From NCBI RefSeq assembly GCF_003732275.1, contig NZ_MOBM01000041.1, positions 1-64,000 on the forward strand: a stretch of 64,000 nucleotides of DNA, written 5' to 3'. The notes below the pieces were generated by a model that made no database searches, was not told the origin of the DNA, and saw only the letters and a list, made by a program, of their open reading frames with translations. Source of the stretch: Pseudomonas frederiksbergensis (GTDB taxonomy: Bacteria; Pseudomonadota; Gammaproteobacteria; Pseudomonadales; Pseudomonadaceae). Positions 13,405 to 64,000 of this stretch are shown piece after piece. Every line of letters starts with the position of its first letter. The first letter of the stretch is position 1. The translations under genes were made by a program, and so were the position numbers.

Positions 13405-13423
13405 ATGATCGTTAGCTTTAAAT
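13347..13423 (+). promoter_or_regulatory. Putative operator/promoter region of higBA
   Basis: An inverted repeat GCATTA (13347-13352) / TAATGC (13379-13384) and a direct repeat CGTTAAGCTTTAAAT (13389-13403) / CGTTAGCTTTAAAT (13410-13423) flank and overlap the toxin start codon. Antitoxins of the HigA/GraA type autorepress by binding such palindromes, so these are the likely binding sites. The second direct copy is inside codons 2-7 of the toxin gene. Confidence 0.5.
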
Positions 13424-13683
13424 GTTCTGAGACCGAGTACCTGTTTCGCAACGGTAAGACCCGTATGTGGTCAGCCATTCTGAGTGTCGTGGAACGAAAG
13501 CTGACGCTGCTTGATGCTGCTGCCGTGCTGATGGACCTTCGGTCACCACCAGGCAATCGACTGGAGGTGCTGGAAGGAAATCGAAAAGGTCAGCACAGCA
13601 TTCGCATCAACGCTCAATGGCGAATTTGCTTTGTTTGGGGTTTTAACGGACCAGAGAATGTCGAAATCGTCGATTATCACTGA
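13405..13683 (+). CDS. higB: HigB/GraT-type RelE-superfamily toxin
   Basis: 92 residues, the usual length of HigB toxins, which are ribosome-dependent mRNA endonucleases of the RelE fold. The conserved end RKGQHSIRINAQWRICFVW contains the arginine and lysine residues expected for catalysis and RNA binding, and the N-terminus IVSFKCSETEYLFR matches the Pseudomonas GraT/HigB set. The toxin gene precedes the antitoxin gene by eight bases, the inverted order typical of higBA. There is no strong ribosome-binding site ahead of the ATG and the start lies inside the putative operator, which would keep toxin synthesis low. Confidence 0.9.
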   Translation: MIVSFKCSETEYLFRNGKTRMWSAILSVVERKLTLLDAAAVLMDLRSPPGNRLEVLEGNRKGQHSIRINAQWRICFVWGFNGPENVEIVDYH

Positions 13684-13691
13684 GGTGAGTA

Positions 13692-13997
13692 ATGACTAAG
13701 AATGGTATGCGCCCGGTTCACCCTGGCGAGATCCTCAAAGAGGAATACCTTGAGCCTCTGAACCTTACAGCTGCGGCTTTGGCCAGGGCACTGAGTGTTT
13801 CGACGCCTACGGTGAACGACATCGTGCTTCAGCGTCGAGGTGTCAGTGCCGATATGGCTCTAAGGCTATCTATCTGTCTGGACACGACTCCCGAGTTTTG
13901 GCTGAACCTGCAATCGACATACGATTTGCGAAAAGCCGAGATCGAACGAGGGGCTGCGATCCGGGATCAGGTTGAGCGTCTTCCGCACTGCGCCTGA
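13692..13997 (+). CDS. higA: HigA family antitoxin with XRE-type helix-turn-helix
   Basis: 101 residues beginning MRPVHPGEILKEEYLEPLNL after the initial MTKNG, the hallmark of the HigA/VapI/GraA family. The helix-turn-helix spans about residues 25-65 (LARALSVSTPTVNDIVLQRR). It should neutralise the adjacent toxin by direct binding and autorepress the pair. GAGGTGAG upstream of ATG 13692 is a good ribosome-binding site, stronger than that of the toxin, consistent with an excess of antitoxin. An intrinsic terminator follows directly. Confidence 0.92.
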   Translation: MTKNGMRPVHPGEILKEEYLEPLNLTAAALARALSVSTPTVNDIVLQRRGVSADMALRLSICLDTTPEFWLNLQSTYDLRKAEIERGAAIRDQVERLPHCA

Positions 13998-14013
13998 CCC
14001 TCTATTCCTGAAC

Positions 14014-14045
14014 GAACCCCACGTTACAAACGTGGGGTTTTTTTG
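14014..14045 (+). terminator. Intrinsic terminator of higBA
   Basis: AACCCCACGT (14015-14024) pairs with ACGTGGGGTT (14030-14039), followed by a run of T. Confidence 0.85.
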
Positions 14046-14051
14046 GTGTGT

Positions 14052-14573
14052 TCAGAATGCCTGGAGCATTCGGGAGGCACGCTTCCACCACGACGCATTC
14101 ACCGCACGTTGTGGCCGTTCATCCTCCGGCAGCATCTGCGGCACATCCTGCAACCGAATCCACGGCTGGTTATTCCAGTGCAGCAAACTCAACGACATCT
14201 CCGGCCAATTCAGCAGGCTCAGAATCGAGCGTTCGGTTGAAGTGGGTTGCTGCGCGTCTCTGAGGGCTGGCACGACATCGTGGGTCAGCCATTCGCGCAG
14301 GCACCGGTATTCGGGGCAGTAGTGGTAGACCAGTAACGCGTAGACACCGGATTCGCTGATCAGCAGTGTGTTTTCGACGGTGCCGTGGATGAGCGTCTGC
14401 AGATTCTGGTGTTGGTCGGGATCGAGTTTGCGTAGCGCTCGTTCGTCGAGGAATAGCCTGAGCAATCGACCGAGGTCGCGGGCGCTGAACCAGGGTTGGT
14501 TTTCCAGAAGGAGGGCGTGGAGGTGGAGTTTGTGGCGGGTGAAGACGTGGGGGATTAGATAGTTTTCGTCCAT
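14052..14573 (-). CDS. BRO-N domain protein (phage antirepressor-like)
   Basis: 173 residues from ATG 14573. The first 100 residues carry a BRO-N/antirepressor-like pattern (PWFSARDLGRLLRL, then SGVYALLVYHYCPEYRCLREWLTHDVVPALR), the fold used by phage and baculovirus BRO proteins to bind nucleic acid. The C-terminal part, including LLHWNNQPWIRLQDVPQMLP, looks like a partial second copy of the same unit. The frame is open upstream to 14840, but that part overlaps a structured RNA and I consider it untranslated. The ribosome-binding site is weak (GAGCA). The gene is convergent with higBA; such solitary genes are common in pseudomonads and of unknown role. Confidence 0.72.
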   Translation of the reverse strand: MDENYLIPHVFTRHKLHLHALLLENQPWFSARDLGRLLRLFLDERALRKLDPDQHQNLQTLIHGTVENTLLISESGVYALLVYHYCPEYRCLREWLTHDVVPALRDAQQPTSTERSILSLLNWPEMSLSLLHWNNQPWIRLQDVPQMLPEDERPQRAVNASWWKRASRMLQAF

Positions 14574-14634
14574 GGTGCAGTGCTCGGGATCAAATGAAGA
14601 AAACTGCCTCTGATCGTCGCCAAACGAAAAGGGT

Positions 14635-14710
14635 GGCAGCCATGCGCGGGTTGGCGAACCGGTGACACCCGAAAACCGGCAGACCCGAAGGTCTCCCACG
14701 CATAGCCGCC
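14635..14710 (-). ncRNA. Structured 76-nt RNA element in the leader of the BRO-N gene
   Basis: Read on the minus strand, a 16-bp stem joins 14695-14710 to 14635-14650, with three of the pairs G-U; the two arms therefore pair as RNA although they are not a perfect DNA palindrome. Inside lie a UUCG tetraloop hairpin AGACC-UUCG-GGUCU (14681-14694) and a second short stem around CCGG (14658-14663 with 14675-14680), giving a three-way junction. It ends about 60 bases before the BRO-N ATG. I recall similar sequences in leaders of small Pseudomonas genes, often mis-annotated as hypothetical ORFs, but cannot name an Rfam family. Confidence 0.6.
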
Positions 14711-14858
14711 ATAATTCGAGATGGGAACAAATTCCTCGGTCGAATGTGGTCGCGGTGCGTCGGGGTCTTCCGGGTCGCCAAACCCAGAGCTGAACATTCA
14801 GCTGGGGATGAGCATAGAAACTGGAGGCCTTACGACGCAATCGGACGGCGGTGCTGAT

Positions 14859-14930
14859 CTTTGTAGGACGTTGCCGGGATATTTGCGGGGCTTAAGATCA
14901 AAAGATCGCAGCCTTCGGCAGTTCCTACAG
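14859..14930. repeat. Degenerate REPIN, GTAGGAGCTGCCGCAGG family
   Basis: A decayed left arm (TTTGTAGGACGTTGCCGGG) and a better right arm (AGATCGCAGCCTTCGGCAG) related to the elements at 24164 and 51389. Confidence 0.6.
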
Positions 14931-14976
14931 GGGTGGTTGTTCCAGCGAGGGGCTGCTGGAACACCGTGGTGACTCT

Positions 14977-15002
14977 ATCGCGAGCAGGCTCGCTCCCACA
15001 TA
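14977..15002. repeat. REP singlet, GGGAGCGAGCCTGCTCGC family
   Basis: One copy of the ATCGCGAGCAGGCTCGCTCC core without a nearby inverted partner. Confidence 0.7.
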
Positions 15003-24255: not shown

Positions 24256-24320
24256 GGGGCGGGAAACCGTCCGCCGCCCCTCACTTGTATATTTATTGAG
24301 CTGTGATAGTGTCCAGAGAC

Positions 24321-24380
24321 GCCTCAACCCATCGAGGCTCGTGAAAACCCCGCCTTTTTCTGGCGGGGTTTTGCTTTTTT
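24321..24380 (+). promoter_or_regulatory. rnk leader with attenuator-like terminator
   Basis: A hairpin GCCTC...GAGGC (24321-24338) is followed by a strong intrinsic terminator, AAAACCCCGCC (24344-24354) with GGCGGGGTTTT (24362-24372) and more T, only 30 bases before the rnk ribosome-binding site. I recall that Rfam holds rnk leader families, including one for Pseudomonas, found by premature-terminator analysis. An AT-rich possible promoter lies near 24283-24310. Confidence 0.65.
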
Positions 24381-63819: not shown

Positions 63820-64000
63820 TAGACGCTCCGAAACTCAGGTGGTACATTCGGCCCCGCACTGGTTTCTCCACTGCCCCCTGCTAGCCGTCGCCGACGCACT
63901 CCTTTTCGAATAAGTACGCGATCCTGTCGCCTTCTCTGCGGCGCGGCCTCATTAAGCCAAAAGCTTAATTTCCCCCCTCCATAAATGATTACGTCATTCC
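63820..64000 (+). ncRNA. Leader of rho (Pseudomon-Rho-like RNA), incomplete
   Basis: The window ends in a long non-coding stretch after trxA, where rho is expected. C-rich, G-poor segments (CCACTGCCCCCTGC, TTTCCCCCCTCC) are suitable Rho-loading sites, and a short hairpin candidate GCGATCCTGTCGC occurs near 63919. I recall an Rfam motif named Pseudomon-Rho in exactly this position. The start codon of rho lies outside the window. Confidence 0.55.

Follow-up and report, generated by a model that had tools for sequence, protein, structure and literature searches.

A C4-type antisense RNA in the leader of a Pseudomonas bro-N gene, and its many relatives with loops apparently matched to the genes behind them

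What is the strongly folded element that lies ahead of a bro-N gene in Pseudomonas frederiksbergensis, and how might it act on that gene? The preliminary description of the window (the whole 64,000-nucleotide stretch of DNA that was analysed) had reported a highly structured 76-nt element at positions 14635–14710, with a structure that works in RNA of the minus strand only. We computed the folding energies of both strands and compared them with those of dinucleotide-preserving shuffles. The minus strand gave –45.6 kcal/mol (z = –5.19), against a mean of –30.28 (standard deviation 2.95) for 200 shuffles, none of which was as stable (0/200), whereas the plus strand gave only –31.2 kcal/mol (z = –2.54), and 2 of 200 shuffles were as stable. 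As had been described, the predicted fold of the minus strand comprises a 16-bp closing stem, a UUCG hairpin and a second stem; 3 of the 16 closing pairs, as read from the sequence, are G–U. The 3' edge of the element is 61 bases from the bro-N ATG at position 14573, in agreement with the earlier figure of about 60.

A comparison of the window with all 4227 Rfam families identified the minus strand of 14635–14710 as the core of a C4 antisense RNA (RF01695), the extent of the covariance-model match being slightly wider than the core (Table 1). C4 of phages P1 and P7 represses antirepressor synthesis. With a match of 83.5 bits to a family known from P1/P7 and Acinetobacter baumannii, the earlier idea of an undescribed RNA family was rejected, whereas its other half, a genus-wide distribution, held. 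The alternatives offered for its function, a cis-regulatory leader or a small RNA, are both apt, since C4 is described as an antisense RNA cut from its own leader (PMC5320573). Two other known Pseudomonas leaders occur in the window, the Pseudomon-Rho leader (RF01720) at 63847–63947 (+) and the rnk leader (RF01772) at 24275–24380 (+).

Compensatory changes, for which the preliminary description had proposed to look, were found in all three helices (P1, P2 and P3). In a MAFFT alignment of 38 distinct copies from the same genome, 94.4% of the helix cells were paired and 14 of 27 pairs carried two-sided changes; 0 of 500 shuffles reached any of the five measures, and slid controls were far lower. 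The three-helix fold was also upheld by compensatory change in a second alignment of 79 distinct rows, which was fitted to the model and hence leans towards the model fold. The fold z-scores and these changes support the view that the element is a transcribed, strand-specific RNA.

The features of the leader are listed in Table 1, in which conservation refers to 23 loci of the bro-N site, namely the window locus and 22 orthologues. A consensus sigma-70 scan of positions 13950–15000 found no promoter; the pattern of the candidate read by eye, TTGCGN-(16–19)-TAWSCT, is kept in 18 of the 23 loci. The match to RF03163 that marks the a1-b1 region reached 22.3 bits (E = 0.0062), under the gathering score of 46.7. 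Loop b' and b2 of the window share only 5 Watson–Crick bases, among the weakest matches of the 23 loci, 21 of which have at least 6 bases between b' and the ribosome region. The duplexfold energies were –10.8 kcal/mol for a'-a2, –13.2 for b'-b2, –15.6 for a'-a1 and –16.1 for b'-b1. The window b1 was unspecific (rank 9 of 38).

Table 1. Features of the bro-N leader in the window (positions counted from the first letter of the window)
Feature	Sequence	Position	Strand	Remarks
Candidate promoter	TTGCGT - 18 nt - TATGCT	14811..14840	minus	putative, read by eye
a1-b1 region		14767..14817	minus	leader copy of the C4 target; RF03163 (c4-a1b1) match
a1	TTGGCGA	14775..14781	minus	7/7 complementary to a'; in 23/23 loci
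b1 candidate	CCCCGA	14760..14765	minus	just outside the RF03163 model match
C4 antisense RNA (RF01695)		14629..14716	minus	83.5 bits, gathering score 45, E 6.2e-15, model 1-87 of 87
C4 loop b' (P3 loop)	TTTTCGGGTGTCA	14663..14675	minus	faces the ribosome-binding region
C4 loop a'	TCGCCAA	14651..14657	minus	7/7 complementary to a1 and a2; identical in 23/23 loci
a2, target of a'	TTGGCGA	14617..14623	minus	7/7; in 23/23 loci
Partner of C4 3' arm	GGCAGTT	14602..14608	minus	possible partner, in an alternative fold, of the closing stem's 3' arm
b2	CCCGA	14584..14588	minus	11-15 nt before the ATG, inside the ribosome-binding region
bro-N gene (antirepressor-type), 173 aa		14052..14573	minus	PF02498, 44 bits, cut-off 25.6

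In the genome to which the window belongs, 42 matches to RF01695 were obtained, and 38 distinct copies were kept after 4 mirror copies on contig C1 (1,421,354 bases) had been dropped. The coordinates of the mirror pairs sum to exactly 1,421,355, and this contig looks like an inverted-duplicate assembly artefact; the duplication may also explain a contamination estimate of 9.64% for the assembly. All but one of the 38 copies exceed the cut-off, the exception being L077 at 36.3 bits. According to Pfam, the proteins behind them are DUF6124 (25), DUF3077 (2) and Bro-N (2), and nine had no match, among them L066, a frame-shifted DUF6124 gene in which a six-frame search finds the domain (the product has 68 aa, and the domain continues in another frame). 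A short ORF after C4 overlaps the start of the main gene in L041 and L077, like icd-ant of P1, and the main gene was used there for the Pfam scan.

We compared the C4 loops of each copy with their own (cognate) targets and with those of the other copies. The 38 copies carry 24 different a' heptamers, and a perfect a'-a2 match was found in 27/38 cognate pairs but in 2.5% of 1406 non-cognate pairs; mean identity was 0.955 and 0.632, respectively (permutation standard deviation 0.020). For a'-a1, 26/38 cognate pairs were perfect, against 2.1% of non-cognate pairs. The longest match of b' to the ribosome site averaged 6.71 bases in cognate and 3.91 in non-cognate pairs (permutation standard deviation 0.16). 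When a complete a2 (7/7) and a b2 of at least 6 bases were required together, with three registers of a' allowed for cognate and non-cognate pairs alike, 22/38 cognate but 4/1406 non-cognate pairs qualified. In 34 copies no other target surpassed the own one, which was uniquely best in 26. This separate scoring of a' and b' was adopted after plain duplexfold ranking had been seen. The latter was dropped as a single-copy discriminator because it was poor, the own downstream target ranking first in only 4/38 copies and the upstream one in 12/38 (for the window C4, 10th and 1st of 38, respectively), although the mean downstream energy was stronger for cognate (–25.6) than for other pairs (–20.4; permutation standard deviation 0.50).

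A covariance search of Pseudomonas genomes, another check that had been suggested, found C4 in at least 32 of 36 Pseudomonas genomes, among them the own one; at least 15 of these hold 20 copies or more, with a maximum of 42. Elsewhere in the order, at least 4 of 21 genomes contain 1 to 6 copies each, and an even draw from the class gave at least 24 of 369 genomes (own included). These counts, like those of RF02221 below, are lower bounds, with 62 or 11 candidates scored per genome; the class survey recovered 11 of the 42 own-genome hits. Cognate matches recur in other genomes: when the best locus was taken from each of 29 genomes, a2 was matched in 27 of the 29 loci, a1 in 24 and b2 (at least 7 bases) in 23, and for genome G005, which has 42 copies, the corresponding numbers among the 30 that were scored were 28, 25 and 19, one locus (L015) belonging to both sets. 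The six copies of G050, a genome outside the genus, show the same a1/a2/b2 logic by eye, except that no a1 was recognised in the single copy below the cut-off (L153); one of the six precedes a Bro-N gene. Three tandem C4 copies about 850 bases apart occur at 3628832–3630617 of contig C1 of G005.

The least biased set is the one derived from DUF6124, since it starts from the protein. From at least 471 confirmed Pseudomonas loci the best 80 were kept, and a model built from the own-genome C4s found C4 in all 80 (81 hits). Here a2 was perfect in 60/81 hits, against 9.4% of non-cognate pairs, and b2 reached at least 7 bases in 51/81, against 4.7%. Within the own genome, DUF6124 gave 31 hits (29 without mirror copies), 26 of which have C4 just upstream. 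The 38 distinct own-genome copies and the 80 DUF6124 loci thus bear out the earlier remark that related elements lie ahead of other small Pseudomonas genes. DUF6124 occurred in 0 of 72,556 plasmids and, out of 50,697 phage records, in a single one, that of an element from P. fluorescens Q8r1-96, which has the domain at its edge. A search of the open-access literature showed one paper on DUF3077 and none on DUF6124, which is thus practically without literature. Another group, proteins of about 52–57 aa that start like MHALNPSALQ, stands behind the best C4 in L009–L011, L014, L016, L019, L027 and L032; its member in L011 has no Pfam match.

On these grounds it is highly probable that the window C4 sits in the leader of bro-N and represses that gene. 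One transcript would run from the candidate promoter ahead of a1-b1 through C4 and bro-N; C4 would fold and, as in P1, perhaps be cut free by RNase P; and loops a' and b' would then pair with a2 and b2, hiding the bro-N start region and switching the gene off. In a competing ON fold, a1-b1 would pair with a' and b' while the 3' arm of C4 pairs with GGCAGTT, and the leader would be a bistable switch or carry its own decoy. By energy calculation, the minimum-energy fold of the whole window leader contains the latter pairing, and the a1-b1/a'-b' fold (–101.4 kcal/mol) is predicted to be 4.9 kcal/mol more stable than the C4 fold (–96.5). The a'b'-a2b2 pseudoknot, which is beyond what the folding program can represent, may tip the leader to OFF. 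Native C4 was the minimum-energy fold in 17/38 own copies, 11/23 bro-N loci, 48/81 hits at DUF6124 loci, 20/30 G005 copies and 20/29 loci of the best-per-genome set. The competing partner of the 3' arm is a GGCAG-type stretch behind a2, and its pairing was longer for cognate pairs in the own copies (5.39 vs 4.70; standard deviation 0.16) and in the 81 hits (5.74 vs 4.93; standard deviation 0.12), with no cognate preference in the 23 bro-N loci (5.39 vs 5.66). A terminator-like hairpin between a1-b1 and C4 was seen in 3/38, 9/81, 1/23, 7/30 and 15/29 members of the respective sets (shuffles, 1.5–6%). It was rejected as a general part of the model, being present in some copies only and absent from that of the window; where such intrinsic-terminator-like hairpins occur (L009–L037, L109–L137 and others), they could give a separate a1-b1 decoy RNA.

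We considered the possibility that C4 is never released and acts solely in cis, as an attenuator whose long-range pairing stays within its own mRNA, so that insulation would amount to intramolecularity. This agrees with the presence of C4, a1-b1 and a2-b2 in one leader with nearly fixed spacing and with the two fold states of similar energy in whole leaders, but it appears unlikely. C4 of P1/P7 is described as acting in trans after RNase P cleavage, and the Acinetobacter copies as apparently processed (PMC5320573). Moreover, pure cis action does not call for 24 heptamers in one genome, because intramolecular pairing requires no insulation; the many different a' heptamers argue for trans action, in which cross-talk would matter. 

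The sequence patterns are best read as a genus-wide collection of antisense switches that are encoded in leaders and for the most part insulated from one another. The window locus would then be one of about 38 modules in its genome, in most of which the small gene is a different one (of DUF6124, DUF3077 or an unnamed family) and the loops are fitted to their own targets.

The same plan was seen in a second RNA family, sRNA-Xcc1 (RF02221), which had no match in the window and none in the own genome at the thresholds used. In a second BRO-N clade of the genus (55–63% identity), C4 was present in 0 of 7 loci examined (L103–L108 and L038), and sRNA-Xcc1 lies upstream of BRO-N in three of them. Like C4, the sRNA-Xcc1 leaders carry complementary copies before and behind the structured RNA, the latter at the ribosome site; their sequence and covariance model are different. 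Leaders of this and similar types in L103–L108, L038, L158–L172 and L253–L282 follow the C4 plan. In 14 loci, several of them near-identical, the cognate match was 7.14, compared with 5.10 for other pairs, and 0 of 20,000 permutations were as high; the set was drawn from 15 hits, and L170, below the cut-off, was left out. In 22 loci from the even class draw (23 hits taken, 22 past the flank-length filter), the values were 6.23 and 4.78, with a maximum of 5.82 in 20,000 permutations. Genes behind leaders of this type include a Rha-family (L169, 99 bits) and a SymE-family gene (L253, 47.6 bits); L250 was excluded from the protein alignment A5 for a stop in frame. In Xanthomonas integrons, sRNA-Xcc1 is reported upstream of symE, with a mechanism called divergent (PMC12444791). 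The extension to sRNA-Xcc1, if true, would mean that an RNA described in print as acting in trans has a target in cis.

The SymE toxin family behind the related-looking leader of L253 also bears on the idea that the modules are type I toxin–antitoxin systems, in which the small proteins are growth inhibitors and C4 is the RNA antitoxin. The matched RNA–gene pairs resemble such systems, and icd of P1, within the C4-controlled operon, is described as a cell-division inhibitor (PMC8198154). We nevertheless regard the idea as doubtful for the modules described here: BRO-N is an antirepressor-type domain and no known toxin, PADLOC gave no match among the 38 proteins behind the own-genome C4s, and DUF6124 has no known activity, its structure prediction (mean pLDDT 70, pTM 0.47) yielding only a helical hairpin (helices 61–85 and 90–114).

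The bro-N site itself offers a separate view of the repressive pairing proposed here. The gene downstream of the window C4 is of antirepressor type by its Bro-N domain and by PHROG, in which 10 of the 11 best matches lie below E 0.001 and 9 are to families named anti-repressor. A protein search of 149 genomes of the genus gave 92 with a match at E 0.001 or better, and C4 was kept in 23 of 24 fetched loci with a BRO-N identity of at least 70% (own included). A BMFP gene (PF04380), which we take to be ubiK, and glnK adjoin 21 of the 23 loci; one of the other two (L091) sits at a contig start. Most C4 modules do not stay in place: compared with the 30 fetched loci of the 42 G005 hits, only 4 of the 38 own modules share both flanks with one of these loci, and a single flank is common to 10 further pairs. 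Stable placement, as seen for the window locus, is thus out of the ordinary. A HigB-like toxin and HTH antitoxin gene pair (13405–13997, +) is convergent with bro-N; near copies of it flank some orthologous loci and are absent from others. The own genome has three BRO-N genes only, two of them behind C4 (window and L077).

While a', a1 and a2 do not vary in the 23 loci, the b' segment occurs in 13 forms, and the ribosome region changes along with it. With one representative of each of the 13 loop types, the cognate b' match averaged 7.69 bases, compared with 4.45 for the others, and 0 of 100,000 permutations were as high, which is direct evidence at the sequence level, independent of the paralogues, that the b'-b2 pairing is maintained at the bro-N site. 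It is therefore very unlikely that C4 and bro-N are functionless leftovers of a decaying prophage: the protein does fall in phage antirepressor families, but b' and the ribosome site change in concert, the position and C4 are conserved in the proportions given above, and dN/dS of bro-N, at 0.10–0.21 against 7 orthologues, indicates that the gene is under purifying selection. Residence in a prophage was rejected as well: DUF6124 is all but absent from the phage and plasmid records, as given above, and BRO-N relatives occur in 345 phage records, each best place having less than 60% identity. The locus may be regarded as a domesticated phage-type module at a fixed chromosomal place. That the element is part of a coding sequence, either an 80-aa ATG frame (14555–14797) or a TTG frame continuous with bro-N, is scarcely credible and was rejected, since both frames are open in the window but would be shifted by the P3/b' segment, whose length ranges from 13 to 16 nt over the 23 loci, Pfam gave no match to the 80-aa frame at E 0.1, and it is base pairs that covary.

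We lean, if only slightly, towards a wider view, in which an RNA of phage immunity has been taken over by Pseudomonas and now serves the host as a repertoire of RNA switches, up to about 40 in a genome and insulated from one another. A module would consist of a decoy (a1-b1), an antisense RNA (C4) and a target (a2-b2), which diversify together under pressure to avoid cross-talk, including that between orthologues at a single site, and would control a small protein (DUF6124, DUF3077, BRO-N or others); sRNA-Xcc1 would be a second RNA family on such a plan, with SymE-type, Rha-type and BRO-N genes, and the order of decoy, antisense RNA and ribosome site would be a general regulatory architecture and no peculiarity of P1. 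C4, familiar so far chiefly from two coliphages and from a catalogue of sRNAs in Acinetobacter, would here join the larger chromosomal antisense–target sets, and DUF6124 would gain a regulatory context. Dozens of natural RNA pairs per genome would be available for studying how antisense specificity evolves without cross-talk, and insulated RNA parts could readily be taken from the modules.

The C4 family itself is known (the Rfam discovery paper is PMC2864571); what appears to be new is its expansion in Pseudomonas and the copy-by-copy matching of RNA and gene, and in the open-access literature we found no description of this expansion, of control of DUF6124 or of cognate RNA–gene pairing. The R178 repeat of P. 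fluorescens, reported as 101 bp long with 18, 28 and 9 copies in SBW25, Pf0-1 and Pf-5, respectively (PMC2718517), would fit the C4 module in size, copy number and internal inverted repeat when compared by description only, and may be the same element. The c4-icd-ant operon of P1/P7 shares with the window module the fold and, given the weak RF03163 match and the short b'-b2 pairing of the latter, probably also the order of a1-b1, C4 and a2-b2. In P1/P7, loop b' lies over the ribosome site, and loop a' pairs further upstream (PMC5320573). The target in both cases would be a ribosome site, belonging either to an antirepressor-type gene or to a short coupled one. Unlike its phage counterpart, the window module is chromosomal and syntenic, and there are dozens of copies in one genome with different loops, mostly ahead of genes that are not antirepressors. 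Closer in this respect are the 21 C4-like Group 1 sRNAs of A. baumannii AB5075, which are likewise multi-copy and chromosomal with a variable a' loop; as in P1/P7, C4 is described there as excised from its own leader, the sRNAs being processed from longer transcripts, and the available account leaves their targets as phage or unidentified bacterial mRNAs (PMC5320573). In Pseudomonas, unlike in that account, the C4 loops were shown copy by copy to fit the start region of the gene that follows immediately.
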